Shown here: positions 19,425-59,813 of the stretch, piece by piece
Layout of the letters: every line of letters starts with the position of its first letter
How positions within the stretch are numbered: the stretch's first letter is position 1
Source of the DNA: Algibacter amylolyticus
Lineage (GTDB): Bacteria; Bacteroidota; Bacteroidia; Flavobacteriales; Flavobacteriaceae
Reading direction: 5' to 3'
DNA length: 64,000 nt
Assembly (NCBI RefSeq): GCF_014202225.1
Contig: NZ_JACHGE010000003.1
Coordinates: forward strand, 186,001-250,000
Notes under the pieces: generated by a model
The model's input: only the letters and a program-made list of their open reading frames with translations
Databases searched by the model: none
What the model was told of the DNA's origin: nothing
Translations under genes and position numbers: made by a program

Positions 19425-20876
19425 ATGATATTTAATTCTTTAGAGTTTTTTTTATTTCTTTTTGTGGTTTATGCGCTCTATTGGTTAGTGTTTAAAAAAA
19501 GCCTTAAAGGACAAAATATTTTACTTCTTATTTCAAGTTATATTTTTTATGGCTGGTGGGATTGGAGGTTTTTGTTTTTAATTGTTTTAAGCACAATCGT
19601 TGATTATTTTATAGGCATTACTATTTATAAAACAGAAAAGCAAAAGACCCGGAAAGCTTGGTTATGGGTTAGTGTATTATTTAATTTAGGGTTATTAGGT
19701 TTTTTCAAGTATTATAATTTCTTTGTAGATTCTTGGATCGATCTATTTTCGGTCTTAGGTTACAGTTTAAATAGCACTTGGACATTAAATATTATTTTAC
19801 CTGTTGGTATATCCTTTTACACGTTCCAGACGATGTCTTATTCGTTTGATATTTATTATAAAAAATTAAAGCCCACCAAAAACTTTTTGGCCTTTGCAGC
19901 TTTTGTTAGTTTCTTTCCGCAGTTAGTTGCTGGTCCTATAGAAAGAGCTTCTAATTTATTACATCAAATTATAAATAAAAGAACATTTAATTATAATCAA
20001 TGTGTAGGGGGCTTAAAGCTTATTTTATGGGGTTTATTTAAAAAAATGGTAATAGCGGATTCGTTGGGACCTATTGTTGACGATATCTTTACAAATTATT
20101 CTAGCTATTCGGCGTCCACTTTAGTTTTAGGAGCGGTATTTTTTAGTTTTCAAATCTATGGTGATTTTAGTGGGTATTCTGATATAGCCATTGGTACAGC
20201 TAAGCTTTTTGGAATAGAGTTAAAATCTAATTTTAAATTCCCATATTTTTCAAGAAATATTGCGGAGTTTTGGGTACGTTGGCACACCTCTTTGTCCGAT
20301 TGGTTTCGTTACTATGTTTATATTCCATTAGGAGGCTCTCGTAAATCAAAATTAATTTCAATTAGAAACATTGCCATTGTATTTTTAATTAGTGGCTTAT
20401 GGCATGGTGCTAATTGGACCTATTTGTTTTGGGGCGCTTTTCATGCCATAGCATTTGTTCCTATATTTTTATTGGGCAAAAATTCAAAATATAAAAACTC
20501 TATAATAGGAGAGCACTCATTATTACCATCAATAAACGAAGTACTTCGAATGGTAATGGTTTTTAGTCTTGTGACCTTTTCGTGGGTGTTTTTTAGGTCG
20601 GCTACTATAGCTGATGCATTTAGCTATATTTTAAGAATGTTTTCGGAGTTTACGTTTCATTCATATAGACATCCAACAGGCTTCAGGATGATTGATTATT
20701 ATGTTTTAATCGCTCTTTTTGTAGTTTATGAATATATTATAAGACGTGACGAACGTGCACCGTTTAAATTTAAATCTAAGTACATTCGGTTTATTGCGTA
20801 TGCAATTGTTATTCTGTGCATGTTGTTGTTTTATGATAGCAAAATAGATCGATCTTTTATTTATTTTCAATTTTAA
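19425..20876 (+). CDS. MBOAT-family O-acyltransferase (first copy)
   Basis: A 483-residue polytopic membrane protein related to alginate acetyltransferase AlgI and DltB. Family landmarks are SSYIFYGWWDWRFL near the N-terminus, ILPVGISFYTFQTMSYS, FFPQLVAGPIERA, YGDFSGYSDIAIG, the cytoplasmic RWHTSLSDWFRYYVY block and the active-site histidine in ISGLWHGANWTYLFWG. It moves acyl groups, usually acetyl, across the inner membrane for polysaccharide esterification. The next gene, 20 bases on, encodes an SGNH-type partner. It is strongly similar to the second copy at 37880-39322, which faces the other way. Confidence 0.93.
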   Translation: MIFNSLEFFLFLFVVYALYWLVFKKSLKGQNILLLISSYIFYGWWDWRFLFLIVLSTIVDYFIGITIYKTEKQKTRKAWLWVSVLFNLGLLGFFKYYNFFVDSWIDLFSVLGYSLNSTWTLNIILPVGISFYTFQTMSYSFDIYYKKLKPTKNFLAFAAFVSFFPQLVAGPIERASNLLHQIINKRTFNYNQCVGGLKLILWGLFKKMVIADSLGPIVDDIFTNYSSYSASTLVLGAVFFSFQIYGDFSGYSDIAIGTAKLFGIELKSNFKFPYFSRNIAEFWVRWHTSLSDWFRYYVYIPLGGSRKSKLISIRNIAIVFLISGLWHGANWTYLFWGAFHAIAFVPIFLLGKNSKYKNSIIGEHSLLPSINEVLRMVMVFSLVTFSWVFFRSATIADAFSYILRMFSEFTFHSYRHPTGFRMIDYYVLIALFVVYEYIIRRDERAPFKFKSKYIRFIAYAIVILCMLLFYDSKIDRSFIYFQF

Positions 20877-20895
20877 TTATTTAAAGAGCTTAGAG

Positions 20896-21858
20896 ATGAA
20901 AAAAATATTTTTTAAAGGTGCTTTTTATGGTTTATTGATTGTTTTAGTTTTAGAGCTAGTGGTTAGAGGGTTTCATTTAACTAAAGATTATCCAGTTCGA
21001 ATTATTGATGAAAATAAAGTGGAGAAGTGGCAACCTAATCAAAATGGATTTTCTGTTACAGGAAATAGGCGTCAAAATTTTTCCGAATTCCGAATAAATA
21101 ATTCTGGTTTCAATTCCTATCGCGAATTTGCACCTTCAAAAGAGAAAAAAGAAATAGCGTTAGTTGGAGATTCATACATAGAGGGGTTTCATCAAGACTA
21201 TCAGTTTTCTATTGGAAATAAAATAGAAAAGCAATTAACCAATTTTGAAGTTTACGAATATGCTTATGCGGGCTATGATTTTGCCGATGAACTTAATTTA
21301 ATCAATCAGTTTAAAGATGATTTTAATCTAATTGATTACGTTTTTATAGATCTTAAATTTAAAACAGATTTGCAAAGAGGTGAGTATACTGTAATTCCGG
21401 ATAGAATGAACTTAGAAACTCCGTTTTATAGGAACTTACGTAAATTTAAATTGCTAGTATACTTAAATAGTATAGGTATAACAGGAGATTTAAAGACACG
21501 TTTTAGAGAATTAGTAGCCTTCAAAATAAAACCGAATACAACACCTAAGAATGAAAACAAGCTTCAGGAAGTTGATGAAATAAATCCTAAATATTTAGCT
21601 AATTTTAATAAGTTGGTAGAAACTTATAATTTCGATAAATCAAGGTTTGTTCTCTTATTAGAAAAAAGAAATACACCAAATGCGTTTAAAAATTATTTAA
21701 AGGTAAATAATTTTAAATTTATAGATTTAACTACTGATTTAGAGACGTCTAAAAGACCTACGACATTAATTTATGATAGTCATTGGAATGATAATGGCAG
21801 GAGTATTGTAGCGAATGCTATTGTGAACTACACCAGGCAATTGGAATTTAAGAACTAA
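20896..21858 (+). CDS. SGNH/GDSL-type acyl transfer partner of MBOAT
   Basis: A 320-residue protein with one N-terminal transmembrane anchor (residues 4-25) and a periplasmic SGNH-like domain. Block I is VGDSYIEG with the likely nucleophile Ser93. The late DSHWND motif supplies Asp294 and His296, the same DxHW arrangement as in AlgJ and AlgX. It probably takes acyl groups exported by the MBOAT protein and places them on the polymer. It follows the MBOAT gene by 20 bases. Only three bases separate its end from the convergent ATP-grasp gene, with no terminator visible between. Confidence 0.82.
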   Translation: MKKIFFKGAFYGLLIVLVLELVVRGFHLTKDYPVRIIDENKVEKWQPNQNGFSVTGNRRQNFSEFRINNSGFNSYREFAPSKEKKEIALVGDSYIEGFHQDYQFSIGNKIEKQLTNFEVYEYAYAGYDFADELNLINQFKDDFNLIDYVFIDLKFKTDLQRGEYTVIPDRMNLETPFYRNLRKFKLLVYLNSIGITGDLKTRFRELVAFKIKPNTTPKNENKLQEVDEINPKYLANFNKLVETYNFDKSRFVLLLEKRNTPNAFKNYLKVNNFKFIDLTTDLETSKRPTTLIYDSHWNDNGRSIVANAIVNYTRQLEFKN

Positions 21859-21861
21859 AAT

Positions 21862-22983
21862 TTACCGTAAATTAAGTTTTCTTAAAATAAAACTACTCGT
21901 TCTGTAAATAGTTGGTTTTAGATCGCTTAGCATGTATTTAATAGGCGTATTGTTAAAAATAAACTTTAATTTTAATAACTGGCTTTTATCTCTTTTAATA
22001 CTTTTTACTAAGCCTTTTAGAAGCATAAAATCAATTAATTTATAATCAGGAGTTTCAAACGGTTTATTTAAACTTGATAAGTAGTATAAATATGGGAAGT
22101 TTATGCCTGCAAATAAAGAAGCTTCTACAGATCCCCAAAATCGTGGGTTTATTTCTACAACCTTAAAATTTTTAGCTTTTTCATCAAACCTCATGTCTAG
22201 ATGTGCTACTCCAGACCAATCTAAAGATTTCATTAAGGTTTTTACTTGATTTAATATGTCGTCTTGCTTAACAAATTTAAACGATATTTGAGGTGCAAAT
22301 TTATTACCTCCAAACATGTTTGGCTTTTGTATGGTATAGGCTAAAACCTCACCATTTTTGCATAATACACTGCAATCAATATCATAACCTTCAATATAAT
22401 CTTGTACAAGGTAATTGATTTTGGAGTCGTTAGAATTTAGAAACTCCAAAAATTCAGATTCTTCTTTAAAAACTTTAATACCTAAACCGCCTCCAGGGCT
22501 TTCAATAGGTTTAATTAATATGGGGTAATCTACCTTGCTTAAATCGGGTGTTAACCCTTCTGCAATTACTTGGCTTTTAGGATAAGGCAAGCCTAATGTT
22601 TTTAAATACTCAGTTAAAGTACCTTTATTGATAGCTTTTTCAAAATTGCTATGAGATGGGAGAAGGGCTAATTTATTTGGTAACCTAATTAAATCTTTAT
22701 ATTTAGTAATAAGCCGAATGCTATGCTCAAATATGGGCATAATCAAATCAATGTCTTGATTTTCAGTTATGTCATTAATGTTACTAATATAATCGACATC
22801 AGATTCTGTTTTTGGGCGGTAATAGAACTTATAAACCTTTTTTGAGTGCTTCATAGGTATGTCAGCATCATCAGACATAACATGGATTTTTACCCTTTTA
22901 ATTTCCGAAAGGCAATTTAAAACTATCATTAAAACTGGAGCCTCTCCATCGGGTATAAGAATAGATATATTTTTACTAGGCAT
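21862..22983 (-). CDS. ATP-grasp domain ligase
   Basis: A 373-residue ATP-grasp protein. The N-terminal part (ISILIPDGEAPVLMIVLNCL) is a Rossmann-like pre-ATP-grasp domain. The ATP-binding core has YPILIKPIESPGGGLGIKVF, then YLVQDYIEGYDIDCSVLCKN and the metal-binding end KVVEINPRFWGSVEASLF. Such enzymes join a carboxylate to an amine or thiol through an acyl phosphate; similar stand-alone forms occur in capsule and peptide-like pathways. It is the most distal gene of the leftward locus, 279 bases past the GNAT gene. A role in building the acyl or amino-acyl substituent is inference from its neighbours. Confidence 0.85.
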   Translation of the reverse strand: MPSKNISILIPDGEAPVLMIVLNCLSEIKRVKIHVMSDDADIPMKHSKKVYKFYYRPKTESDVDYISNINDITENQDIDLIMPIFEHSIRLITKYKDLIRLPNKLALLPSHSNFEKAINKGTLTEYLKTLGLPYPKSQVIAEGLTPDLSKVDYPILIKPIESPGGGLGIKVFKEESEFLEFLNSNDSKINYLVQDYIEGYDIDCSVLCKNGEVLAYTIQKPNMFGGNKFAPQISFKFVKQDDILNQVKTLMKSLDWSGVAHLDMRFDEKAKNFKVVEINPRFWGSVEASLFAGINFPYLYYLSSLNKPFETPDYKLIDFMLLKGLVKSIKRDKSQLLKLKFIFNNTPIKYMLSDLKPTIYRTSSFILRKLNLR

Positions 22984-23262
22984 GATAATAGTTATTTAAT
23001 TAAGTTCAAAATTACTTGTGGCATATCAATATAATTCAAATATTTAAAAATAATCCGGAATAAATATACTTTCCATATTATTTCGATATTATGTATAAAT
23101 AACAAGATAAAACTTACTTATAGCAGAGTGATTTTATAATAATTCATTTTTTATTGGACATTTGGTTTAATTAAATCGATCAAAAATTATTTTTTAAATA
23201 AAGTTAATCATAATTTTTTTAATTATAATTTAACTCCTAGAGTCTAGTTGTTAACTTATAAA

Positions 23263-24504
23263 TCATGAAAGTTTTACATATTGATTTTCGTTGTTATTTT
23301 TTATTATATAACTATCATTTTCAAGCTGAAAGAGTTCAATAGCTTCAAAATGTAAATTATTAGCGTATAAAAAGTTGTAAACTTCTTTTTTAAGTTCCGA
23401 ATTGGTTTTTTCCAATAGCGACAAGGGTTTCAGACTCATATTAGCAATATCAGTATCTAAAATAGATGTTATTTGGTAATATTTTGGTTCTGGTGCTTTT
23501 CTGTTTTTTAGTTTAAAGATTGTCTTATAATAAAAATCATTGACTCCTTTTTGTCTTAAGTATTGCTTAAGTTTAAGTTTAGCAGCCACGAAAGCTGCTA
23601 GCCCACTTGATATAATTGATTTTTCATAAATTAAATGATACTCGTAATTATAGATTTTATTACACCAATCTTTTTTATATCCATATTCTCCTTTATAAAA
23701 ATCGAATTTATTGAAGCCTTTATCAGTAAGAGCTTCAAATAAATTCATTATGGTAATGGAGCCTAAACCAAATTTATAATAATTAACATCAAACACCGGA
23801 ATTACTCCAACAGTGAGCGAATTAAAGTGGTAACATAAATAAAGTGAGATTGGGTTTTTGTTATTATATACGACATAAAGTGAGGCTTCACCATTAGCAA
23901 TCATTGGATGAATTGTGTCGGTGTAAAAGTCCCAAAAATAACCATCTGTTACGGGGTAAAATTCTTTTCTTGATTTAAATTTCTCAATTAATAAAGCTTT
24001 AAAAGCTCTCATCAAAGCTAGATATGTGTCTTTAGGTATTACTGTTTTGTAAAATAATTGATAAGATATATTAAAACACCTTTCTAGTTTTTTTTTTCTC
24101 CTATTAATGTTACCAATTTTTTTTCTACCAACTTGTTCAGAAAAGTAATCATCAATAGTTTTATATTCTGAAAAATCAGCCATATAGGCTTCATTTTCTG
24201 GAATTCGCTTAGTTTTTAATTTGGTATAATAGGATGTATTTGTATAATTTATATTATCATAATTGGGTATATTATAAATAACTAGGAGTTTGTTTTTAAA
24301 ATTAGAGGGTCCAATTCTTTTTAAATCATAACTATTGCTAATCATTAATAAGCTACCACCAATACTACTAAAAACGGGTAGTAACTTGCTTTTTAAAAAC
24401 GTTACACCATCTATAAAATTAAAATTATATAACTTAACTTCTTTGGAGTAATGAGATTTCCATTTGTCTTTAAACAATTTAGAAGACGATAGGGCTTTAT
24501 TCAT
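23263..24504 (-). CDS. GNAT/FemAB-like acyltransferase
   Basis: A 413-residue protein. Its central region (about residues 90-310) resembles the GNAT superfamily subgroup seen in polysaccharide loci (BioF2-like, Acetyltransf_6). It has NINRRKKKLERCF, then SLYVVYNNKNPISLYLCYHF and GLGSITIMNLFEALTDKGFN, the last like the acyl-donor binding loop. KFDFYKGEYGYKKDW is the typical family end-motif. The last 80 residues form an extra lysine-rich domain without a clear relative. It has no signal peptide, so the reaction is cytoplasmic. It lies 23 bases downstream of the 360-residue FemAB-like gene. Donor and acceptor are unknown. Confidence 0.75.
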   Translation of the reverse strand: MNKALSSSKLFKDKWKSHYSKEVKLYNFNFIDGVTFLKSKLLPVFSSIGGSLLMISNSYDLKRIGPSNFKNKLLVIYNIPNYDNINYTNTSYYTKLKTKRIPENEAYMADFSEYKTIDDYFSEQVGRKKIGNINRRKKKLERCFNISYQLFYKTVIPKDTYLALMRAFKALLIEKFKSRKEFYPVTDGYFWDFYTDTIHPMIANGEASLYVVYNNKNPISLYLCYHFNSLTVGVIPVFDVNYYKFGLGSITIMNLFEALTDKGFNKFDFYKGEYGYKKDWCNKIYNYEYHLIYEKSIISSGLAAFVAAKLKLKQYLRQKGVNDFYYKTIFKLKNRKAPEPKYYQITSILDTDIANMSLKPLSLLEKTNSELKKEVYNFLYANNLHFEAIELFQLENDSYIIKNNNENQYVKLS

Positions 24505-24527
24505 TTTTTTATCTATTTATCCTTAAG

Positions 24528-25610
24528 TTAAGTATTGCTTTTTTCTTCCCATCTGTACTTAGGGAAGAAATCGGAATTAGCATCTTCCGAGAAGTTTTTA
24601 TTTAAAACTAAGGTATTATAAACGTCTTCGTTAACAATATAAGTCCATACTTTAAAAGACTTGTAATGATTTGATAAGGAAGACTTAAATTTAAATAAAC
24701 TGTCTTGTTTGTTGTTTAATCCACCACCTAAATTAAAATAGTTAAAACTTGTACCGGAGTAATCCAATCTCACTTTGTCAAATAATGCCCGAATCGGAGA
24801 GAGGTGTAAATAATCGGTATGAGTACCAGATAAATGGTATTGAATAATCCCATTTGTTTTAATCATTAATGCAGCCGAAACGGTATTTTTGGTTTCTTTA
24901 TCAACAGCACAAATTATATCTGTTTCAAATTCATTGCTATTTATAAAATTTAAAAAATAGTTCTTACTAAAATAGTAACTTTTATGCGCGTTCACGCGAT
25001 CCATATTTTTGTAATACAAATCAATAAATGCATCTAATGCTTTTAAACTATTTATTTTTTTAATATCAAGCATTTTTTGTGCTTTTCTTAAATACCTTTT
25101 TGTGGTGCTAGAAAAGCCTAATTCTTGTGCTTCAAAAGGTTCCTGTAAATCCAAGTATACAACTTTACCAAGTGCTTTAATAGCACCTATGTTTTCTAGA
25201 ATATTAGCCTGGTTTTCTATAAACGGATGTAATCTGCTAAATACAGAAATTATATTTTGTTTTTTTAAAAATGCATTTAAATGTTTTTTAAAATTGGTGT
25301 TGTCAAAATTAGCACCTATATTTTTATTTAATGGGCCAGCATATCCGTAAACAGAAGTGGCATCAAAAAAAGGAGTGCCTTCAATAGGTCTAATAATTAG
25401 AGGTAAACAAATTACAGTATCTCTTTCATGGTATTTTATTAATATCGAAGTTTCATGGTCTAATTTGGATAATTGGTGGTAATCAAAAGTATGGTAAAAG
25501 TCATAATGTGCCACTTCTTCCAAGGTTTTTTGCCAAAGAATCTTTTCTTTTATTAAGGTTACGCTTATATTTATATCTATTTTTTTCATTGATAGGGTTT
25601 TATTTTTCAT
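24528..25610 (-). CDS. FemAB-like GNAT protein, paralogue of the fused domain
   Basis: A 360-residue cytosolic FemAB/GNAT-type protein. It has SVYGYAGPL, then SSTTKRYLRKAQK, a central NMDRVNAHKSYYFSKNYF, HLSPIRALFDKVRLDYS and the late FNYFNLGGGLNNKQDSLF, all seen in FemAB-related capsule proteins. The same landmarks occur in the same order in the C-terminal third of the upstream 887-residue protein, so the two are paralogues. Classical FemAB enzymes use aminoacyl-tRNA to make an amide; these relatives may use another aminoacyl or acyl donor. The gene starts with MKNKTLSMKKIDINIS; the internal Met8 is an alternative start. Spacing to the upstream gene is 48 bases. Confidence 0.78.
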   Translation of the reverse strand: MKNKTLSMKKIDINISVTLIKEKILWQKTLEEVAHYDFYHTFDYHQLSKLDHETSILIKYHERDTVICLPLIIRPIEGTPFFDATSVYGYAGPLNKNIGANFDNTNFKKHLNAFLKKQNIISVFSRLHPFIENQANILENIGAIKALGKVVYLDLQEPFEAQELGFSSTTKRYLRKAQKMLDIKKINSLKALDAFIDLYYKNMDRVNAHKSYYFSKNYFLNFINSNEFETDIICAVDKETKNTVSAALMIKTNGIIQYHLSGTHTDYLHLSPIRALFDKVRLDYSGTSFNYFNLGGGLNNKQDSLFKFKSSLSNHYKSFKVWTYIVNEDVYNTLVLNKNFSEDANSDFFPKYRWEEKSNT

Positions 25611-25658
25611 TTACAAAAGAAACTATTTAGAGTATTCATTTTTGGGGCGAACAAAAGG

Positions 25659-28322
25659 TTATCCATTATTAAATCGATAAAATGGAAAGAAGTATTTTTT
25701 AATTTCATCTATATGAGTATTATTATAATCTTTATGTTTGCTTATGCATAGCTTTTCGTAAACTTGATAATTATTTATTTTCCTACCTGTATAGAAAACA
25801 ATATCATCATCCTTCGGAAAAAAGGCTTTTTTACTTTTATATAAGCCATCGCCATCGCTTAAGCCTCCACCTAATACGTAATGTTTTAATTTATTTTCAA
25901 TGGCCCATTTAATAATTTCTACACGTAAAAAATCATTTGGTCTATGACTGAAGTAGTTGGCATCTGTGCCTCCTAAAAAAGCAAATAATGTATCGTTGTT
26001 TTTAATAATTAATTCTGCAGATATAGGCAAATCATTAAAATATGAATAGGCTATAAGGATTTCAGATCTATGATTTGAAATTAATTCTGTAAAATATTGT
26101 AAAGAAAAAAAATATAGCTCTTTTGCGTTATTTCGTTTCATAGTTTCTGTATAGATTGTATAAAACGTGTTAATTTCTTCTTGAGTTATTTCTTCTTCTT
26201 GAAGAATTTTAAAGGTCAAGTTGTTAGATTTTGCCTTACGATAGTTGTTTCTAACCTTAGGAAGGAATTTTTCCCATTGCAGTTCGAAATCAGACTCTAA
26301 TGTGCCTTTAACATTTAAAAGCGTTGAAATGAGTAAGCCAGAATAGCTAATGTAATTTCTGTTTAAGCTAAACCTAATAAATTCTGTAACGACATTCTTT
26401 TTTTCATACCAACAATCTATGGCTTTCCAAAAGGCTTGTAAATCGATTGAGTTGACTTGTTTGTCATCATATAAAGGGCCATTATAGCCATATGGAGTTA
26501 TAGTATCAAAACATTCCTCCTGATCGTGTTTTGTGTCTATTTTCCTTAGTATTATTGGCATTATAATTTTTACCTCTCCATTTATTTTAAATTGAAAGCA
26601 CTTTAAGGTATCCGTTTCGCTAACAAAATATTTTAAGTGGTCGTATGAATAATATACGTTATTGTTCCAATTCTCTTTAAGTAAGGTTTTATACTCTTCA
26701 ATTTCTTCAGTACTGTTTAATTTTTTACTTACAAAATTGTATTTTTTATTAAGGTTTTCTACCGGGAAAATATCATTATATAATATTTTAGATAATATTT
26801 GAGATAGCCATATTATTCTACCACAATGTTCTACATGCCACACCGCCTTGTTTTCAATTACATTACCCGCTAGCATTGGGCCCATTACATGAAGGTTTTT
26901 GCTGCATTCTAAGGCGTTATTTACGTGAAACCCTATGTTTGATTGATTAGGTACGCAATATTTTTTTTGCAATAAGTTTTTATAAAGTAATGGCAGATCG
27001 TCATGTTTTAAATTTTTACTACCAACACAATTAATAATAATATGGAATGCATTTGGGTTCGTTAACGTTTTACCTGTTTTGGTATCTACATAAGCCAAAA
27101 TATAATCCCCGTTACTATCTTTTACTAAATTGCTAAATCTACCTGCAATATGTTCAAACCTATTTTTACGTTCTAGATTGTCAATTACATTGGTATAATG
27201 CTGTCCTGCACAGCGTTGTCTTTTTCCTATGGCGTTTCCATATTCGCACGCAAATATTTCAAGCTCTTTTTCATTTAAAGATTTTAATAGTACGCCAAAG
27301 GATTTCGAAATAATATCTACTGTTGATGCAGGACCTAAATTAATTTCATCAGCGAGGTCCAAATCTTTATAAGTAGCTTCAGCAATAGTTTGTGCTGTTA
27401 ATTTGTTACAATTTTTTAAGGCTTCTAGATGTATAGGTTTAAATTTTTCTTGCCCTTCAATATCTATGGTAGTATCAGGGATTCGCCCTTGGGTAGAAAG
27501 AAATGTAAAATTCGTATTTTTAAATTCTTTGCTTTTAAAATCGTTAATTTTATATATAACCTCTAAGCCACTAGCGTTAGCACCAACAATTAAAATATTT
27601 ATTGTTTTATCGGCATTTGTGGTTATAAAATTTTGAATTTTATCAAGAGATACTTTTAGTTCAGGTTTATAAGGGTTATTTAAAAACAAGAGATTGTCCT
27701 GTTCAATAACTCTTTTATTTTTCCAGAGATTATTTGTAGGCAAGGAGCCCACGGAAAGGACTACTTTTTTGGATTTAAGATCTTCTTTATCTTCTAGTTT
27801 TATAGTGTAAACGCCATTTACACGCTCAATATCAATGGCTTTTGCGTTAATTTTATTTAACTCAATTTTATTAGATTCGCTAAGCTTTTTAGTTTTAGCC
27901 TTAATTAATTGGTCCATGTAGCAACCAAAAAAGCGTCTAGGAATAAATAAATCTTCCCATCTATTGTGTTTTATATCGTCATGGTTGTTAGTCAACCACG
28001 CTTCTGTTAATACACCTCCTTCATTTTTAAGTTCTTGAAGTAACCAATTTTTATTACTATTTAGCCAGGCAATAAATAAACCTAATTCCGGCTCAATTAA
28101 AAAATTTCTTAAGGACGTGATTAGAAGTGTAGAAAACCCAGATCTTTCACCATATGGTAAACCTAAATTAAATTCATGGTATTTCTCAATAATATTTAAG
28201 GTTATTTTTTTATCATTAGTTTCATTATTATTAATGAGTTTTAAAAATCTTAGAATACTAAAGGAGGTTGATATACCCGATCCAATAAAAGTTAAGTCTG
28301 TAATTTCTTTAGTATTGTCCAC
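25659..28322 (-). CDS. Fusion of FAD/NAD(P)-binding oxidoreductase and FemAB-like domain
   Basis: An 887-residue two-part protein. Residues 1 to about 525 form a flavoprotein. The FAD site is DLTFIGSGISTSFSILRFL, followed by LGLPYGERSGFS, and a second dinucleotide fold is INILIVGANASGLEV. The pattern is like PF13454-type FAD-NAD(P)-binding proteins and N-hydroxylating monooxygenases. Residues about 537-887 are a FemAB/GNAT domain with ITPYGYNGPL, KVRNNYRKAKSNN, HRPNDFLRVEIIKWA and YVLGGGLSDGDGLYKSKK, paralogous to the next gene. The frame is continuous, so the fusion is real unless the assembly is wrong. Only one base separates its start from the preceding acetyltransferase gene. I infer coupled oxidation and amide transfer; the substrate is unknown. 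Confidence 0.82.
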   Translation of the reverse strand: MDNTKEITDLTFIGSGISTSFSILRFLKLINNNETNDKKITLNIIEKYHEFNLGLPYGERSGFSTLLITSLRNFLIEPELGLFIAWLNSNKNWLLQELKNEGGVLTEAWLTNNHDDIKHNRWEDLFIPRRFFGCYMDQLIKAKTKKLSESNKIELNKINAKAIDIERVNGVYTIKLEDKEDLKSKKVVLSVGSLPTNNLWKNKRVIEQDNLLFLNNPYKPELKVSLDKIQNFITTNADKTINILIVGANASGLEVIYKINDFKSKEFKNTNFTFLSTQGRIPDTTIDIEGQEKFKPIHLEALKNCNKLTAQTIAEATYKDLDLADEINLGPASTVDIISKSFGVLLKSLNEKELEIFACEYGNAIGKRQRCAGQHYTNVIDNLERKNRFEHIAGRFSNLVKDSNGDYILAYVDTKTGKTLTNPNAFHIIINCVGSKNLKHDDLPLLYKNLLQKKYCVPNQSNIGFHVNNALECSKNLHVMGPMLAGNVIENKAVWHVEHCGRIIWLSQILSKILYNDIFPVENLNKKYNFVSKKLNSTEEIEEYKTLLKENWNNNVYYSYDHLKYFVSETDTLKCFQFKINGEVKIIMPIILRKIDTKHDQEECFDTITPYGYNGPLYDDKQVNSIDLQAFWKAIDCWYEKKNVVTEFIRFSLNRNYISYSGLLISTLLNVKGTLESDFELQWEKFLPKVRNNYRKAKSNNLTFKILQEEEITQEEINTFYTIYTETMKRNNAKELYFFSLQYFTELISNHRSEILIAYSYFNDLPISAELIIKNNDTLFAFLGGTDANYFSHRPNDFLRVEIIKWAIENKLKHYVLGGGLSDGDGLYKSKKAFFPKDDDIVFYTGRKINNYQVYEKLCISKHKDYNNTHIDEIKKYFFPFYRFNNG

Positions 28323-28323
28323 T

Positions 28324-28971
28324 TTAATCGTGTTTTTTAATTTTAATAATTTTTCCGGGATTACCTACAACAGTAGCGTAATCAGGTACATCTTTCAATA
28401 CAATTGTTCCAGCACCAATAGTACACCATTTTCCGATTTTTACTTTTGGAATTACGACACAGCCAACTCCAACATGTGATCCTTCGCCAACCTCTACATG
28501 CCCACAAAGTGCTGCCTTTGGTGAAATATGAGCAAAATCTCCAATTATATTATCATGATCAACACTTGCTCCAGTGTTAATTATAACATGCTTTCCAATT
28601 ACCGTGTTTGGTTGTATAATAGCTCCAGCAAAAACAACTGTTCCTTCTCCAATTTTAGAAGTCGGTGAAATTATAGCGGATTGATGTATGGCCTTTTCGT
28701 AATTGCAATTTAAAAATTCCGATATTTCAGCGCGTTCTGAATTTTTTCCAACGGCAATTATAACGGGAGCACCTTCATGCGGAAAATTTAAAATATTCTC
28801 TCTTGCTCCAATAGCTACATTTTTAGAGGCATGATGAACTTGCTCTGGTTTGTCATCAAAAGTATCTAAAATCTCATAGCCATTTATACGCATAACTTCT
28901 TTAATAACATGCGAATGACCTCCTGCGCCGTAAATTCTAACTTGATTTTTATAATTAGGAGTCTTTTTCAT
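28324..28971 (-). CDS. PglD/NeuD-family sugar acetyltransferase
   Basis: A 215-residue left-handed beta-helix acyltransferase. The N-terminal Rossmann-like part begins VRIYGAGGHSHVIKEV. The hexapeptide repeats run from about residue 95 to 200. The catalytic-base histidine is probably in TGASVDHDNIIGDFAHISPK. The end NPGKIIKIKKHD is typical. In the bacillosamine pathway PglD acetylates the 4-amino group of UDP-4-amino-4,6-dideoxy-N-acetylglucosamine. PglF- and PglE-like genes lie at 56696-59775 and a PglC-like transferase is next upstream, so the same role is likely here. An adjacent carrier protein and adenylating enzyme leave open that it uses another acyl donor. Confidence 0.88.
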   Translation of the reverse strand: MKKTPNYKNQVRIYGAGGHSHVIKEVMRINGYEILDTFDDKPEQVHHASKNVAIGARENILNFPHEGAPVIIAVGKNSERAEISEFLNCNYEKAIHQSAIISPTSKIGEGTVVFAGAIIQPNTVIGKHVIINTGASVDHDNIIGDFAHISPKAALCGHVEVGEGSHVGVGCVVIPKVKIGKWCTIGAGTIVLKDVPDYATVVGNPGKIIKIKKHD

Positions 28972-29021
28972 AATAATTTAATAACTATGTTTCTTAAATA
29001 AATTTCATATACTAAAAAAAT

Positions 29022-29645
29022 CTAACTAACCTTATTGTCTTTTCTAATGATATTTAGCATGGTTTCAACATTAGTATTGTCAACAGCAACATCTTTGGAT
29101 GAAATAACTTTAAAAACGGTTTTAAAAAAAATGCTTAAATCTAATTTAAAAGATAGGTTATCTACATATTCGGCATCAAAATTTAACTTGGTATCCCAAT
29201 CTAAATTATTTCTGCCATTTACTTGGGCGTAACCCGTAATACCTGGTTTTACTGTATGTCTTTTTTGTTCGTTTTTGGTGTAATAAGGCAAATACTGTGG
29301 TAATAAAGGCCTAGGGCCAATTAAAGACATATCGCCTTTTATAATGTTAAATAATTGCGGCAATTCATCAATAGATGTTTTTCTCACTAGTTTACCAATG
29401 GTAGTTAAGCGGAATGTGTCTGGTAATAAATTACCTTCGGCGTCCTTCTTATCGTTCATGGTTTTAAACTTAATTATTTTAAACAATTTTTCATTTTTCC
29501 CCGGTCTTACCTGAAAAAAGAAAGGTTTACCTTGATTTGCAAATAATAGTAATATAGTAGCTATAATTATTATTGGAGACAATAAAACTAAGGCAATAAA
29601 TGCAATGATGTAATCTAAAAGTGGTTTTATTACGTTTTTATACAT
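29022..29645 (-). CDS. Initiating sugar-phosphate transferase, PglC/WcaJ type
   Basis: A 207-residue small phosphoglycosyltransferase. It has an N-terminal re-entrant hydrophobic segment (residues 8-33), FKTMNDKKDAEGNLLPD, then TSIDELPQLFNIIKGDMSLIGPRPLLPQY with the catalytic Asp-Glu pair, and GITGYAQVNGRN. It joins a sugar phosphate from a UDP-sugar to undecaprenyl phosphate, the first step of repeat-unit assembly. The short form without extra N-terminal membrane helices is the PglC class, which prefers UDP-diNAc-bacillosamine or similar sugars. It lies directly between the carrier protein gene (6 bases) and the PglD-like gene. Confidence 0.92.
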   Translation of the reverse strand: MYKNVIKPLLDYIIAFIALVLLSPIIIIATILLLFANQGKPFFFQVRPGKNEKLFKIIKFKTMNDKKDAEGNLLPDTFRLTTIGKLVRKTSIDELPQLFNIIKGDMSLIGPRPLLPQYLPYYTKNEQKRHTVKPGITGYAQVNGRNNLDWDTKLNFDAEYVDNLSFKLDLSIFFKTVFKVISSKDVAVDNTNVETMLNIIRKDNKVS

Positions 29646-29651
29646 CCTAAC

Positions 29652-29894
29652 TTAAATCAGTTTCGATTGGATAGCCTTTATAAGGTCACCAATATTATTC
29701 ATATTCATTAAATCCATGAGCTTAAATTTTATATTGAAATCTTGCTCAATTTCCGTTATAATCATCATGTGTGTTACAGAACCCCAATCTTCCACATCAT
29801 TGGCAGTTGTATCGTTATTTAAAACAAAATTTTCGTGCTCCAATACTTTCACAAAAGCAGCTCTTATTTTTAGTTTAATATCTTCTTCGTTCAT
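29652..29894 (-). CDS. Stand-alone acyl/peptidyl carrier protein
   Basis: An 80-residue acidic four-helix carrier. The phosphopantetheine attachment motif is DWGSVTHMM with Ser39, matching the DWDSL form of carriers in polysaccharide and DltC-like systems. Size and charge fit. It starts 9 bases downstream of the adenylation enzyme gene, and the products are presumably partners: the enzyme loads an acid onto the carrier arm. It is not the fatty-acid AcpP, whose motif and gene neighbours differ. The acceptor could be a sugar amine through one of the GNAT/FemAB proteins nearby. Confidence 0.88.
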   Translation of the reverse strand: MNEEDIKLKIRAAFVKVLEHENFVLNNDTTANDVEDWGSVTHMMIITEIEQDFNIKFKLMDLMNMNNIGDLIKAIQSKLI

Positions 29895-29903
29895 AATGGT
29901 ATG

Positions 29904-31403
29904 TTAGTTTTTTATAAATTGCGTTCTTAATGTGTTTCTGTCTATTTTTCCATTTATACTAAGAGGAAATTCTTTTATAAAACAAATATATCTCGGAATC
30001 ATATAGTCTGGCATTTTTGCTTTCATATAATCAAAAATATAGTCTGTGTCAAATTGCTCATCTTCAAAGGCTAACCCTAACTCAGAGTTACCTAAGTCGT
30101 TAGTGATATCAATTGCTACTATATTGGATTTCTTCTCAGAAATAGCCTTGGCATGAAATTCAATTTCGGCTAATTCCACTCTAAATCCACGAATTTTTAC
30201 TTGAAAATCTACTCTTCCTATATACAAAAAGTCGCCATCTTCATCTTCTATACAAAGGTCTCCTGTTTTGTAATACCGTTTTGTTTCACCATTTTTTTCA
30301 ATATCTATAAAACTTAAAGCGTTACGTTCGGGGTTTTTCCAATACCCAGGTGTCATTTGTAATCCAGCTAAATATAATTCGCCTTCTGTATTTAATGGGA
30401 CTTCTTTATTGTTTTTATCAACAATTAAATGACTTGTGTTTTTTAAACGGGATCCAATTGAAATTATACCATTTAGCGTTTTATTACTTGTATGCTCATC
30501 GTACTTGTAATAATGACTGTAGACAGTAAACTCGGTTGGTCCGTAGCCATTAAAAATTTTAGCGTTTGGTATGCAACTATTACTCCATTCTTTAGTAATG
30601 TTTTCATACAATGCACCACCACCAAAACAACAATAGCGAACATGTTGCGCGTTGATTTCAGGAAAATAAGGACGCAAATAGTTTAAAATAGAAGGCACCA
30701 TAGCAAGTACCGTAAGGTTTTGCTCTTTAATTAGTTTATAGATATAAAAATACTTAATGGCGTTTTTTGGAATAGTATATATGCAAGACCCTGCAATTAA
30801 AGGAAATACTGTGGTTGCAATAGAAAAATCGAAGGTAAGTTCGAACATTTGCAAGCATCTATCGGAAGCCTGTAAGTTAAAGTCTGGTTGAGTATGCATA
30901 GCATCTACTATGCCATTTAAGTTGGTATGCGTTATAGGTACTCCTTTTGGCATACCTGTTGTTCCCGACGTGAATATCATATAAGCGATTGCATCAGGTG
31001 CTATTGCTTTTAATTCTAAATTAATTTCTGTTGGGGCTAAAGTTTTTGAAGCTATAACATTATAGTCTGTATACACAGATTTTTTCGATGAATCTATAAT
31101 CGTTTTCGTTTCAGTAGAATTAAAAACATGAATATTTCTTTCAATAGGAGTAAAGTGGTTTACTGGTACATAGGCTTTTCCTTCTAACCATAGGGCGATC
31201 ATGCTCGCGTAAGTTTGTATATCGTCATTAGCAATTAATCCAATTAACTTTTCCGAACTATCCACATGGTTTGCAATATGATATCTTATTTTAGAAATTT
31301 CTAATGCAAAGTCCTTATATGTGTAGGCTATATCATCAATATAAAAAGCATCCTTGTTGTAATGCTTTATTATAGACTCCTTTAAATTAGTTAAATATTT
31401 CAT
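29904..31403 (-). CDS. Adenylation enzyme, DltA/NRPS A-domain-like
   Basis: A 499-residue ANL-superfamily enzyme that activates a carboxylic acid as an adenylate and loads a carrier. Motifs in order: MIFTSGTTGMPKGVPITH (ATP loop), FELTFDFSIATTV, NGYGPTEFT, YKTGDL, GRVDFQVKIRGFRVEL (hinge) and the late lysine in NGKIDRNTL. The Asp in TFDFS is at the place that binds the alpha-amino group in amino-acid adenylation domains, so an amino acid substrate is likely. Length equals stand-alone DltA. It lies between a GNAT-like gene (8 bases) and the carrier gene (9 bases). It has no condensation domain, so transfer must be by another protein. Confidence 0.9.
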   Translation of the reverse strand: MKYLTNLKESIIKHYNKDAFYIDDIAYTYKDFALEISKIRYHIANHVDSSEKLIGLIANDDIQTYASMIALWLEGKAYVPVNHFTPIERNIHVFNSTETKTIIDSSKKSVYTDYNVIASKTLAPTEINLELKAIAPDAIAYMIFTSGTTGMPKGVPITHTNLNGIVDAMHTQPDFNLQASDRCLQMFELTFDFSIATTVFPLIAGSCIYTIPKNAIKYFYIYKLIKEQNLTVLAMVPSILNYLRPYFPEINAQHVRYCCFGGGALYENITKEWSNSCIPNAKIFNGYGPTEFTVYSHYYKYDEHTSNKTLNGIISIGSRLKNTSHLIVDKNNKEVPLNTEGELYLAGLQMTPGYWKNPERNALSFIDIEKNGETKRYYKTGDLCIEDEDGDFLYIGRVDFQVKIRGFRVELAEIEFHAKAISEKKSNIVAIDITNDLGNSELGLAFEDEQFDTDYIFDYMKAKMPDYMIPRYICFIKEFPLSINGKIDRNTLRTQFIKN

Positions 31404-31410
31404 AGTGTTT

Positions 31411-32508
31411 TTAATAAAAATGCCCGTCTCTATTAAACATGGTTAGGCTATTATAATCAAATACAGTATCATTATGCACAAGACCCTTTTTTCTCACTTT
31501 ATGCGTAAAAACAGTAAAATAACGTTTGTTTAAATTATCAGACAACTCGGTATCATCTGTAAAAATAAAATTCCGCTTTGATTTTAATAAATTCTCCATT
31601 AAAACATCCACACAAAGATCATAATTATCTGGATCTTCAACCAAAAAGTATTTAACATTAAATTCGTTGTAATTAATGATGTATGATAGAAAACCAATAA
31701 CTACATCATTTTTCATAATTTTTAAATTATGAATACGAATATTGTCACTTACTCCTGGTTGTAAATTGGTATAAGGTCTTTTATGGTTTACAGGCACTTG
31801 CAGGTATTGAGTATTGCTAAGTTGCCAATTCACGTAATCTTTAGTCTTCAAGATAAGATCCTTAGTGCACAATGGTTTTATAAAATCCCAAGTTGCCTTA
31901 TCCAATTCATTTATAAACTCGTAAGTTAAAGCTTCTGTTTTTTTACCTAGTTTATTTCTATTTATAAAACGTACTATTTTTCCTGTAAGTCCATCTATAA
32001 TATCCATAAGGAATTTTATAGGTTTTAAAAAAGGAAAACGTCCTAACAACATAGAACGGTCTAAGCTAAAAAATATGGTGTGCCTTAATCTTGATGCGAT
32101 TACACTAAAAGGTCTTTTATCATAAAACTCTTGGACATTCTCAGTGTACCCTTTAATAACCACTTGGTTTTGTACTAGTTTAACAGCGTAGTCATAAATA
32201 TAAGTACCTAAAATAGAGTCTTTGTAACGTTTAACTACCCACCAATCAATCATCCAATATACCTTTTTAGAGGGTTGGTCTGTCGTATTTATTAAATCTG
32301 GAAACATATAAATAAAGGCTACCATTTCGCTGTTTTCCCAGGCTAAAATACCACAACTATCCTCTTCTTCAATTCTGTTATTAGAAACTAACCAAATAGC
32401 TTTACTCTTAGCCATAGGCGCTACACCCGATTTCCAAAATGTATTATTTTCAATATGCTCTCTTAACTTACTTTTAGTTAAGTTAATGATTTCTAAATCT
32501 TCACTCAT
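31411..32508 (-). CDS. GNAT-like protein with two domains
   Basis: A 365-residue cytosolic protein. The first half looks like a GNAT fold: AFIYMFPDLI, then the donor-loop-like VVKRYKDSILGTYIYDYAVK and the end motif GYTENVQEFYDKRPFS. A middle linker contains two hydrophobic turns (about residues 150-195). The second half (about 270-350) has another GNAT-like strand pattern, IMKNDVVIGFLSYIINYNEF and YFLVEDPDNYDLCVDVLMEN. It is the first gene of the tight cluster that includes the adenylation enzyme and carrier. I do not recognise a specific function. A transferase taking the carrier-bound group is a reasonable guess. Confidence 0.65.
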   Translation of the reverse strand: MSEDLEIINLTKSKLREHIENNTFWKSGVAPMAKSKAIWLVSNNRIEEEDSCGILAWENSEMVAFIYMFPDLINTTDQPSKKVYWMIDWWVVKRYKDSILGTYIYDYAVKLVQNQVVIKGYTENVQEFYDKRPFSVIASRLRHTIFFSLDRSMLLGRFPFLKPIKFLMDIIDGLTGKIVRFINRNKLGKKTEALTYEFINELDKATWDFIKPLCTKDLILKTKDYVNWQLSNTQYLQVPVNHKRPYTNLQPGVSDNIRIHNLKIMKNDVVIGFLSYIINYNEFNVKYFLVEDPDNYDLCVDVLMENLLKSKRNFIFTDDTELSDNLNKRYFTVFTHKVRKKGLVHNDTVFDYNSLTMFNRDGHFY

Positions 32509-32715: not shown

Positions 32716-33154
32716 TTAGTCTAAATATGGTTTAATATTTTCAACTAGATCATTGTTCAAAAGGGTAGCGCCTTTATGGTTTAAATGGGAGGGATCGTAA
32801 AATAGATTTATTTTATTAAGGTAATTGGTTGCGATTATATAGTTGTAAAATGGAACACCTTGAGATTTAACTATAGCTTTAATGGTTGTAACGGATGGGG
32901 TATTTGCTAAATCCCGCTTATCATATTTTGGAGAGCTTACAAATATTAATTTCACCTTATGTTTTTTAGCCTCGTTAATAAAATCCTTAAGTAACCGGAC
33001 AAAAATAGGTTCTACCCTTCTGTATAAATCTTTTTAGGTGGATGTTATATTTTAAAACATGTACATGGAAGAATCTTATGCAGTTTTCAAATTTTTTTAG
33101 GCTACCAAATATAATAGGAGCACGGTAGGTAAAAACACGAAAAATATGGCAGAA
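32716..33154 (-). pseudogene. Decayed SGNH-hydrolase-like gene (5' end lost, frameshifted)
   Basis: Translation of the minus strand shows one reading frame from about 33033 to 32716: RRVEPIFVRLLKDFINEAKK, KLIFVSSPKYDKRD, ending FYDPSHLNHKGATLLN, the C-terminal DxxH part of an SGNH-like protein. Upstream, a different frame (about 33154-33040) reads VFTYRAPIIFGSLKKFENC and HVHVLKYNIHLK. The two fit head to tail only with a frameshift near 33035-33050, and there is no N-terminal anchor or GNS motif. The GTG at 32955 could start a 79-residue product, but the conserved frame runs further upstream. Nearest relative in the window is the gene at 36980-37873. The remainder of 32509-32715 is AT-rich spacer. 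Confidence 0.7.
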
Positions 33155-36979: not shown

Positions 36980-37873
36980 TTATAATACGTTGTTTAGTCC
37001 TTGAATTTTTATGTTTAACTCCTTAGATATTTTCTTAGCACCATGTATATTTAAATGGTCCACATTATAAAATAGAGAGTCGGGATACTTCTTATTAGTC
37101 AAGTTCCAATAAGGAACATCATAAAAATCGCTTATTTTATTAATTTCCACAAGATTTTTATTTACAATGTCCTTGTTTAAATTTTCATTAAAATATTTGT
37201 GGCAAGGTAAAGTTATTAAAATAGGAGTAATTTTTTCTTTTTTTAATGTTTTAATAAATTCGTTTAAATTATTAATAATATTATTTTTTTCCCTAAAGCC
37301 AGCTTCTAGTTGCTCAACTCTTTTTTCTGCGCTAGGGGTATTTATCACGCTCCAATTAGTAGTATTATGCGGTACAAATCCATTATATGAATTGGTTTTT
37401 CCCCTTTGTAAATGCTCTCTAATGGTTTGCTTAAAGCCTAAGGCATATACCCATGATAAATCTTCAATAAAGTAATTTTTCTTATTATAATCTATTTTGT
37501 AGTAATAGTGATAAAAAATATCTCTAGCCTTGTTATGTGTATAATATAAACTATGGTAGTCTATACTTACTAAAACATATTTTAAATTAGGCATTTTTTT
37601 AATTTGCTTTAAAGTTATGGCTTTATCAAAATAAATTGTTTGAGAGCCAAAAGCCATGTTGTAAGTAAACAAATCAAATTCTCTAGGATCTATACCGTTC
37701 ATTGCGTGTGAGTTGCCTAAAACTAAAATCTCTATAGAGTCTGCCTTAGCTGTATACTCTTTCCACTTTTCTTTATATAAGCTATTAGAGTCTCTAACTA
37801 GTATTTCAAGTATAATAAACAAAGCTAATATGGGAAAAATAAAAAAGAATAAACCTTTTATAAATTGTTTCAT
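36980..37873 (-). CDS. SGNH-like acyl transfer partner of MBOAT (second pair)
   Basis: A 297-residue protein with an N-terminal membrane anchor (residues 7-26) and a periplasmic SGNH-like domain. The block I equivalent is LVLGNSHAMNG with Ser55. The C-terminal block reads FYNVDHLNIHGAKK: His273 is kept, but the usual Asp three residues before it is Asn270, so a neighbouring Asp272 may substitute. It follows the MBOAT gene by six bases and probably acts with it to esterify the polymer. It differs from the partner at 20896-21858 and is nearer to the decayed gene at 32716-33154. Confidence 0.75.
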   Translation of the reverse strand: MKQFIKGLFFFIFPILALFIILEILVRDSNSLYKEKWKEYTAKADSIEILVLGNSHAMNGIDPREFDLFTYNMAFGSQTIYFDKAITLKQIKKMPNLKYVLVSIDYHSLYYTHNKARDIFYHYYYKIDYNKKNYFIEDLSWVYALGFKQTIREHLQRGKTNSYNGFVPHNTTNWSVINTPSAEKRVEQLEAGFREKNNIINNLNEFIKTLKKEKITPILITLPCHKYFNENLNKDIVNKNLVEINKISDFYDVPYWNLTNKKYPDSLFYNVDHLNIHGAKKISKELNIKIQGLNNVL

Positions 37874-37879
37874 GATATT

Positions 37880-59775: not shown

Positions 59776-59813
59776 ATAAATAACTCGTATATTTATTTCG
59801 GTTAAAGCCCTAA

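Follow-up and report, generated by a model that had tools for sequence, protein, structure and literature searches.

The gene set considered here is a putative sugar decoration module within an exopolysaccharide locus of Algibacter amylolyticus, located in a 64-kb stretch of contig NZ_JACHGE010000003.1; this whole stretch is referred to as the window. The nearest described case is the set of O-polysaccharide R-group genes of Flavobacterium psychrophilum. According to the accessible part of that report, the prediction is that pglE and pglF produce UDP-Qui2NAc4N and that the carrier WfpD and the PglD homologue WfpG place an acyl group R on its 4-amine to give UDP-Qui2NAc4NR; R is a 3,5-dihydroxyhexanoyl group, for whose synthesis ketoacyl synthases and a reductase are proposed, and the R-group genes (wfpC-G) influence the antigenicity of lipopolysaccharide (PMC6519341). 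As in the wfp set, so far as it is described there, genes of the pglE and pglF types, a dedicated carrier and a PglD homologue are grouped around a 4-amino sugar; unlike it, the window carries a stand-alone adenylation domain (A-domain), a tandem GNAT, FemX-like ligases and a domain with the N-hydroxylase fold. No wfp-type ketoacyl synthase or reductase gene was found among the nine open reading frames (ORFs) of 21862-32508, the other genes of the window having been scanned in part.

All four enzyme types of the Campylobacter PglF-E-D-C bacillosamine pathway are also present in the window, the difference being the extra amine chemistry that we propose between PglD and PglC. In the Dlt system, DltC feeds DltB. 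The likeness to DltA/DltC/DltB consists in a stand-alone A-domain and a carrier for a cell-surface polymer, with DltB-like MBOAT genes in the window, whereas the A-domain and MBOAT proteins score below the model cut-offs and the tandem GNAT, FemX-like and N-hydroxylase-like parts are additional. The exopolysaccharide clusters of the XrtA/PEP-CTERM type contain an acyl-CoA ligase and a FemAB protein, and the window likewise combines an AMP-ligase and FemAB with an exopolysaccharide system, with partial matches to TIGR03098 and TIGR03019; membership in the XrtA-associated ligase/FemAB set was rejected on scores of 177 against 592 bits (TIGR03098) and 40 against 260 bits (TIGR03019). The flavin domain resembles PvdA, SidA, DfoA and FzmM in the fold of its model (best 50 of 809 matches) and differs from the known N-hydroxylases in its low identity (9-14%), its Pfam family, its fusion to PglD or FemAB and its genomic setting.

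Two further precedents concern amine chemistry. VlmH is the N-hydroxylase of the valanimycin pathway and the N-hydroxylating monooxygenase FrbG acts on a CMP-bound amine (PMC7347517), while VlmA, a FemX relative, turns isobutylhydroxylamine into its O-seryl form (PMC12945691). As described in the accessible parts of these sources, VlmH/VlmA is a working precedent for an N-hydroxylase beside a FemX-like ligase, in this case an aminoacyl-tRNA transferase acting on a hydroxylamine that VlmH makes. That pathway makes a small-molecule antibiotic and its VlmH/R pair has a separate flavin reductase, whereas in the window both domains belong to one polypeptide in a glycan locus.

In a limited search of the open-access literature, no description was found of N-hydroxylation in polysaccharide assembly, nor of an A-domain/carrier/FemAB set in exopolysaccharide or O-antigen loci. 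The combination is a new version of a known glycan decoration. With a confidence that falls a little short of even, we propose that two coupled sub-modules, PglD/N-hydroxylase/FemX-like ligase and A-domain/carrier/tandem GNAT, decorate a bacillosamine-type sugar of the exopolysaccharide.

Organization and conservation of the gene set

Nine ORFs between 21862 and 32508, reported in a first-pass annotation of this DNA, are all present on the minus strand. Families were called with Pfam and NCBIfam; structural models were made with AlphaFold2 (AF2). The tandem-GNAT, A-domain and carrier genes are together referred to as the triad.

31411-32508, minus strand: tandem-GNAT acyltransferase of 365 amino acids (aa), which opens the triad (AF2 model, Foldseek, fixed order in 47 of 80 loci)
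29904-31403, minus strand: stand-alone amino-acid A-domain, pocket code DFAACGGVYK (TIGR01733, 297 bits; motifs)
29652-29894, minus strand: carrier protein, Ser39 within DWGSVTHM (PF00550, 25.2 bits)
29022-29645, minus strand: PglC-like phosphoglycosyl transferase (Bac_transf, 202 bits)
28324-28971, minus strand: PglD/NeuD-type sugar-amine acyltransferase (TIGR03570, 210.8 bits)
26778-28322, minus strand: flavin domain, residues 1-515 of an 887-aa ORF, with the N-hydroxylating monooxygenase fold by model (PF13454, AF2, Foldseek)
25659-26777, minus strand: FemX-like ligase domain, residues 516-887 of the same ORF (Acetyltransf_6, FemAB_like, FemAB)
24528-25610, minus strand: FemAB paralogue of 360 aa (weak Pfam match; member of the 33-domain profile with an invariant Lys)
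23263-24504, minus strand: GNAT/FemAB-like transferase of 413 aa (Acetyltransf_6, 48.6 bits)
21862-22983, minus strand: ATP-grasp ligase, probably accessory (ATPgrasp_Ter, 44 bits)

The A-domain, carrier, PglC, PglD, flavoprotein-FemAB fusion and ATP-grasp families named in the first-pass annotation agree with the Pfam/NCBIfam assignments, and the Asp of amino-acid A-domains, which it had noticed in 29904-31403, is present. The two further GNAT-like proteins that it had listed were recovered, 23263 by Pfam and 31411 weakly by Pfam and as a tandem GNAT by its model; the FemAB paralogue (24528) is weak in Pfam, yet a profile that includes it finds FemX. The genes had been described as lying on one strand with gaps of mostly 1-50 bases, which is correct for the strand and for the gaps throughout 23263-32508; the ATP-grasp gene stands apart, 279 AT-rich bases from the remaining ORFs.

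To describe conservation, GTDB contigs were scanned for relatives of the flavin domain. This gave 86 relatives, of which 80 loci were kept, all from genera of Flavobacteriaceae by name or from metagenome-assembled genomes named Flavobacteriaceae or Bacteroidia; relatives are denoted below by L numbers where they need to be told apart. In gene maps, 47 of the 80 loci have the triad with its order and strand preserved, the tree giving family labels for most of these 47, and PglC, PglD and FemAB genes all accompany the triad in 47/47. Co-occurrence elsewhere, whose absence had been named beforehand as one of the outcomes that would speak against the module, was thus observed. Relatives of the 413-aa GNAT (42/47) and of the glycosyltransferase at 33166 (43/47) are nearly as constant. 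An ATP-grasp relative lies near the triad in just 4/47 loci, so that this gene, which had been counted as a member, is probably accessory rather than part of the core set. In the 33 loci lacking the triad, some of them short stretches at contig ends, PglC was detected in 22, PglD in 20 and FemAB in 18.

Among 199 genomes of the same family, its own genome counted, the tandem-GNAT gene was detected in nine (the window and L043-L050), and in all nine it is followed by the A-domain and then the carrier, with PglC and FemAB genes nearby. The flavin domain is present in 14 of these genomes (hand count), the triad in nine and both in six (Fisher p = 2.8e-6, a guide only, the genomes being related). 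The same-family set and the 80 flavin-domain loci overlap (for example, L046 and L067), and the two sets of counts are not independent. In 395 genomes sampled phylum-wide, the tandem-GNAT profile gave six matches: strong ones in the own genome and in genome G387, one fragment, and three of 17-20% identity belonging to another family, around which no A-domain match was found in stretches of about 4 kb. The flavin profile gave eight matches, full length only in the own genome and in genome G125. For neither profile was a full-length match seen outside Flavobacteriaceae in these 395 genomes.

The PglC-like protein has N,N'-diacetylbacillosaminyl-1-phosphate transferase as its best solved match (217 bits). 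The PglD-like protein scores above the cut-off (160.8 bits) of TIGR03570, the NeuD/PglB/VioB acetyltransferase model; its solved relatives include a pilin glycosylation protein, perosamine and bacillosamine N-acetyltransferases and VioB, and the histidines of its VDHD and HISP motifs, which we take to be catalytic, align with those of 4m98, named a pilin glycosylation protein. The larger exopolysaccharide locus around the module contains glycosyltransferases, EpsG, MBOAT, pyruvyl transferase and UDP-sugar dehydrogenases. At 56696-60602, a Poly_export (Wza-type) gene stands alongside two genes to which we presumptively assign, from family knowledge, the roles of PglE and PglF; judged by these assignments they would supply the 4-amino sugar.

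56696-57826, plus strand: PglE-like aminotransferase of the DegT/DnrJ/EryC1/StrS family (PF01041, 289.7 bits)
57823-59775, plus strand: PglF-like UDP-sugar dehydratase (Polysacc_synt_2, 396 bits, plus CoA_binding_3)

The flavin domain and its fusion partners

The 887-aa ORF combines NAD_binding_9 with Acetyltransf_6/FemAB_like in one polypeptide, and PF13454 was matched in 46/46 aligned flavin-domain members. The AF2 model of the flavin domain, built from 46 sequences, has a mean pLDDT (predicted local distance difference test) of 91.0 and a pTM (predicted template modelling score) of 0.88. In a Foldseek search against the PDB, the best 50 of 809 matches (E up to 0.001) were all N-hydroxylating monooxygenases, with E values of 4.6e-15 to 1.2e-12; they represent many chains of six enzymes, PvdA, SidA, SsDesB, DfoA, FzmM and a lysine 6-monooxygenase. 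Neither the flavin profile nor the whole 887-aa fusion gave a meaningful match to the sequences of solved structures. With moderate confidence, based on this model, we suggest that the domain works like an N-hydroxylase, without filing it as a proven member of that group.

In 20/80 loci, PglD and the flavin domain are fused in this order (ORFs of 732-762 aa and one of 1087 aa that also includes FemAB), and in 45 more the flavin domain lies directly downstream of PglD, so that the two are adjacent or fused in 65/80. On its other side, the flavin domain shares an ORF with a FemAB domain in 24/80 loci, and in 36 others a FemAB gene comes next. Of the 24 fusions, those in L091, L094 and L108 have a FemAB partner of the 24528 type, and the other 21 have one of the 25659 type, either alone or in first place; in L069, L072 and L074 a flavin-FemAB-FemAB protein is encoded by a single ORF, in which the relative of the 24528 type sits fused behind the first FemAB domain. 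Because of these fusions and this adjacency, PglD, the flavin domain and the FemAB ligase look like one working unit that is separable from the triad. Taken together with the modelled fold, this makes the domain a probable amine N-hydroxylase associated with PglD.

Flavin-domain relatives free of PglC, PglD and FemAB genes are found at L125-L127, L130-L132, L135 and L139. Those of L125 adjoin secreted GSDH/PKD proteins, and in the other loci of this kind the neighbouring genes resemble these by size only.

In Pfam, the 24528 paralogue reaches 16.8 bits, under the cut-off. A single FemAB domain gave no match to the sequences of solved structures, and a profile of 33 domains, among them the two window copies, recovered Weissella FemX (E 4.6e-15) and 6snr, a Staphylococcus enzyme (E 1.9e-4). 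FemX aligns with profile positions 126-324 of 341. The Lys316 column of the profile is invariant in 33/33 domains and corresponds, by hand count on the alignment, to chain position 305 of FemX (1ne9). Lys305 is described as the catalytic lysine of FemX in the accessible part of the source (PMC12945691). Since the equivalent of this residue is retained and aminoacyl-tRNA is the expectation for the family, the donor of the FemAB domains is more likely to be aminoacyl-tRNA than the carrier.

Adenylation domain, carrier protein and tandem GNAT

The window A-domain matches AMP-binding at 184 bits and the amino-acid adenylation model TIGR01733 at 296.7 bits against a cut-off of 317.4. The motif patterns A3, A5, A7 and A10, together with the A4 Asp, are present in the window protein and in the 47 relatives with the triad. 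The DltA and TIGR03098 models match 9/9 A-domains. Membership in DltA was rejected (254 against 476 bits and 244 against 560 bits), TIGR01733 ranking above both DltA models. The carrier scores above the PF00550 (PP-binding) cut-off of 20.8 bits, and the motif W(E/G)S(I/V/L)(T/S)H is conserved in 47/47 relatives. One other PF00550 match exists in the genome, on another contig, and PF01648, the phosphopantetheinyl transferase family, has a single match.

The 31411 protein reaches 18.8 bits against Pfam GNAT, under the cut-off of 20.7, and Acetyltransf_1 was matched by 32/38 aligned members at E up to 0.1. Its AF2 model is a tandem GNAT (pLDDT 83.6), and Eis, VipF, NMT and the tandem GNAT 2wpw are among the Foldseek matches listed; the tandem-GNAT profile gave no meaningful match to the sequences of solved structures. 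Because of its fixed place beside the A-domain and carrier, the tandem GNAT appears to be the likeliest acceptor or modifier of the carrier-loaded amino acid. Between the window and Algibacter pectinivorans (L063), identity is 74% for the A-domain, 88% for the flavin-FemAB protein and 82.5% for the 31411 protein.

The positions of the A-domain pocket code were set by motif anchoring to GrsA positions rather than from a structure. The code is DFVTSGYVYK in 44 of the 47 triad relatives and DFVSSGYIYK in three, and the window code DFAACGGVYK differs at 4/10 positions from this near-fixed code; none of the three is known to match a specificity signature. Other codes among the family members are DMVTSAYIYK (L048) and DATKIGHVCK (L049 and L050), the latter resembling DLTKVGHIGK, which we take to be an Asp code. 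The pocket carries no charged residue other than the fixed Asp and Lys, so that judging by the code an uncharged amino acid is the likely substrate, and no more than likely.

In the window protein, code positions have changed more often than other well-conserved columns, at a suggestive level: 4/10 against 36/276 (Fisher p 0.037), or 3/8 against 19/221 (p 0.032). Its branch in the tree is long, at 0.54 compared with 0.15 for the sister. A pseudogene is nonetheless unlikely, the ratio of nonsynonymous to synonymous substitution rates (dN/dS) against A. pectinivorans being 0.099, which indicates purifying selection, and the motifs being kept. A change of specificity is a better reading than decay, and the window A-domain may take another amino acid, although the comparison is suggestive only. 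On the other side, the A-domains of L069, L072 and L074 differ at 25-31 conserved columns (22 in the window) with a code near the common one, and those of L083, L090 and L106 also have long branches and retain the common code.

Triad variants with the Asp-like code and no flavin domain occupy 5610-12402 of L049 and 8227-17944 of L050. The former includes formyltransferase and methyltransferase genes; the latter has genes of the same sizes plus a gene of the Orn/DAP/Arg decarboxylase family.

Discussion

From the gene set, its conservation, folds, catalytic motifs and fusions, all established above by computation, we infer the following pathway in its substrates, order of steps and products. 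The flavin monooxygenase domain would hydroxylate an amine. Most likely this is the 4-amine of UDP-QuiNAc4N or that of an aminoacyl group on it. The FemX-type ligase would then attach an amino acid to the amine or hydroxylamine, with aminoacyl-tRNA as the probable donor. The A-domain would adenylate an uncharged amino acid and load the carrier; the tandem GNAT would take the aminoacyl thioester (or acylate it) and deliver it to the glycan precursor, and PglC would then transfer the sugar phosphate to the lipid carrier. Of the decoration module suggested in the first-pass annotation, the amino-acid-type A-domain, the dedicated carrier and the acyltransferase-fold partner, conserved with PglC, PglD and FemAB, are supported, and the set as a whole is conserved and functionally linked; the FemAB donor, the role of the flavin domain and the ATP-grasp membership call for revision. 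The FemAB enzymes had been supposed to place the carrier-bound acid on an amine, for which the conserved FemX lysine makes a tRNA donor the likelier one. The flavin domain had been tentatively supposed to oxidise the carrier-bound acid, which it probably does not, because it is found without the triad in 33/80 loci and is tied to PglD in 65/80.

A more specific outcome is put forward only tentatively. The surface polysaccharide may carry an enzymatically formed N-O function: the PglD- or FemX-fused monooxygenase would hydroxylate a UDP-4-amino-4,6-dideoxy sugar at its 4-amine, or the amino acid attached there, before aminoacylation. This might yield a hydroxamate or an O-aminoacyl hydroxylamine, or an N-N bond in the glycan if a rearrangement follows, and the triad would add a second, carrier-bound amino acid, probably a different one in this strain; this tentative grade applies to all these parts jointly. 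Such a polymer could bind iron. Within the reach of the open-access search, N-hydroxylation, if real, would be a chemistry not previously described for a surface polysaccharide, and a module adding amino-acid and N-hydroxyl chemistry to a 4-amino sugar would widen the known glycan chemistry. Marine polysaccharides would gain possible metal-binding groups, and the fused N-hydroxylase/ligase would be of biocatalytic use.

Several observations weigh against the proposed pathway. The best 50 of 809 fold matches share 9-14% identity with the flavin domain, at TM-scores (template modelling scores) of 0.46-0.58 of the query, and the fold comparison covered this domain as the sole PF13454 protein modelled. 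PF13434 (Lys_Orn_oxgnase) is matched weakly in 6/46 members (best E 0.0013), the window protein not among them. Three genomes of the same family (L048-L050) have the triad and no flavin domain, and nine of the 80 flavin-domain loci have no PglC, PglD or FemAB gene in the stretch (that of L141 being short). MBOAT relatives lie near 42/47 triads and in 11/33 loci lacking the triad (Fisher p 2.1e-7, uncorrected for kinship), which favours a Dlt-like fate of the carrier cargo. The pocket code of the A-domain pointed to no specific substrate. With regard to the first point, low identity is usual among N-hydroxylases, since an aspartate N-hydroxylase of the FzmM type shares 11.4% with SidA, its closest DALI match, according to the accessible part of the report (PMC10404684).

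Assignment to PF13454 by sequence, with PF13434 weak, leaves room for other flavin chemistry. PF13454 is a broad family, and the domain might be another flavoenzyme with two dinucleotide domains, for example a sugar dehydrogenase or an oxidase forming an oxime or ketone, in line with the low TM-scores and the weak matches to Pyr_redox_2 (34/46) and Pyr_redox_3 (21/46). We regard this as very improbable; neither a disulfide reductase nor a Baeyer-Villiger enzyme is among the best 50 of 809 matches, all of which are N-hydroxylases. If the domain is an N-hydroxylase, it could still act on amino acids or diamines in free form, in the manner of PvdA, SidA, DfoA and FzmM, with FemAB/GNAT enzymes coupling the product as a side chain to give siderophore-like hydroxamates. 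By their entry titles, the closest folds (best 50 of 809) act on ornithine, cadaverine and aspartate, and the decarboxylase gene in the L050 triad stretch and the Asp-like codes of L049 and L050 agree with such substrates. However, the flavin domain tracks the sugar enzyme PglD in 65/80 loci and L049 and L050 themselves lack it, and hydroxylation of a free substrate seems distinctly improbable. A role for the flavin domain that is unrelated or minor would reduce the system to ordinary carrier-dependent acylation, in which PglD or the tandem GNAT moves the carrier-loaded amino acid to the sugar amine. The triad is accompanied by PglD and PglC in 47/47 loci, and F. psychrophilum has pglE, pglF, the PglD homologue WfpG and the O-polysaccharide-specific carrier WfpD; yet the accessible part of that report proposes a type II fatty-acid-like synthesis of the group with ketoacyl synthases rather than an A-domain (PMC6519341). 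A minor role is also disfavoured by the fusions to PglD (20/80) and to FemAB (24/80), and on balance ordinary acylation is unlikely.

A Dlt-like route would use the A-domain and carrier as DltA and DltC, with an MBOAT protein and its SGNH partner moving the amino acid to the finished polymer, across or at the membrane, and the tandem GNAT as a helper. The association of MBOAT genes with the triad agrees with this route, as do matches of the window MBOATs (37880 and 19425) and those of L063 and L050 to the DltB model at 145-154 bits and of the window A-domain to the DltA models at 244-254 bits; in 5/47 loci the MBOAT gene is on the triad strand, within four genes upstream. These scores are far short of the cut-offs of 375 (DltB) and of 476 and 560 (DltA), the MBOAT gene is mostly on the opposite strand, it also occurs in triad-less loci (6/12 in the same-family-genome set, hand count), and L049 has the triad with no MBOAT in its 20 kb. 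MBOAT/SGNH pairs, moreover, also perform sugar O-acetylation. Feeding of an MBOAT protein by the carrier would by analogy be possible, and the route as a whole is quite unlikely. We keep the pathway of two coupled sub-modules acting on the 4-amino sugar as the preferred one.

Additional observations

DltB was the sole NCBIfam model matched by the two window MBOAT proteins (153.7 and 148.5 bits against the cut-off of 375). MBOAT genes together with an SGNH-like or unassigned partner of about 300 aa are located at 36980-39322 and 19425-21858 of the window, at 2657-5007 of L063 and at 5808-8153 of L050. By eye, 32716-33100 of the window contains the remnant of an SGNH-like coding sequence; in A. 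pectinivorans, an MBOAT gene and a 312-aa gene lie between the glycosyltransferase and the tandem GNAT, at the site matching this remnant. Elsewhere in the same locus (47271-49370), a polysaccharide pyruvyl transferase adjoins a nitroreductase-family protein.

In L091, L094, L108, L113 and L114, the 413-aa GNAT has four to six diverged paralogues arrayed downstream of the flavin-FemAB gene, an arrangement that suggests successive addition of several residues. A Cupin_8/JmjC-type hydroxylase gene is present at 1944-2783 of L043, and 280-aa genes, matched by size only, stand beside the module in several relatives. A gene of about 434-443 aa precedes the triad in L079, L081, L084 and others; its L043 version has no Pfam match, and the protein in L081 and L064 resembles, by eye, a CapK/PaaK-type adenylate-forming enzyme. 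This gene, often next to one sized like the sugar-transfer associated ATP-grasp gene of L043, was not seen beside the window triad.

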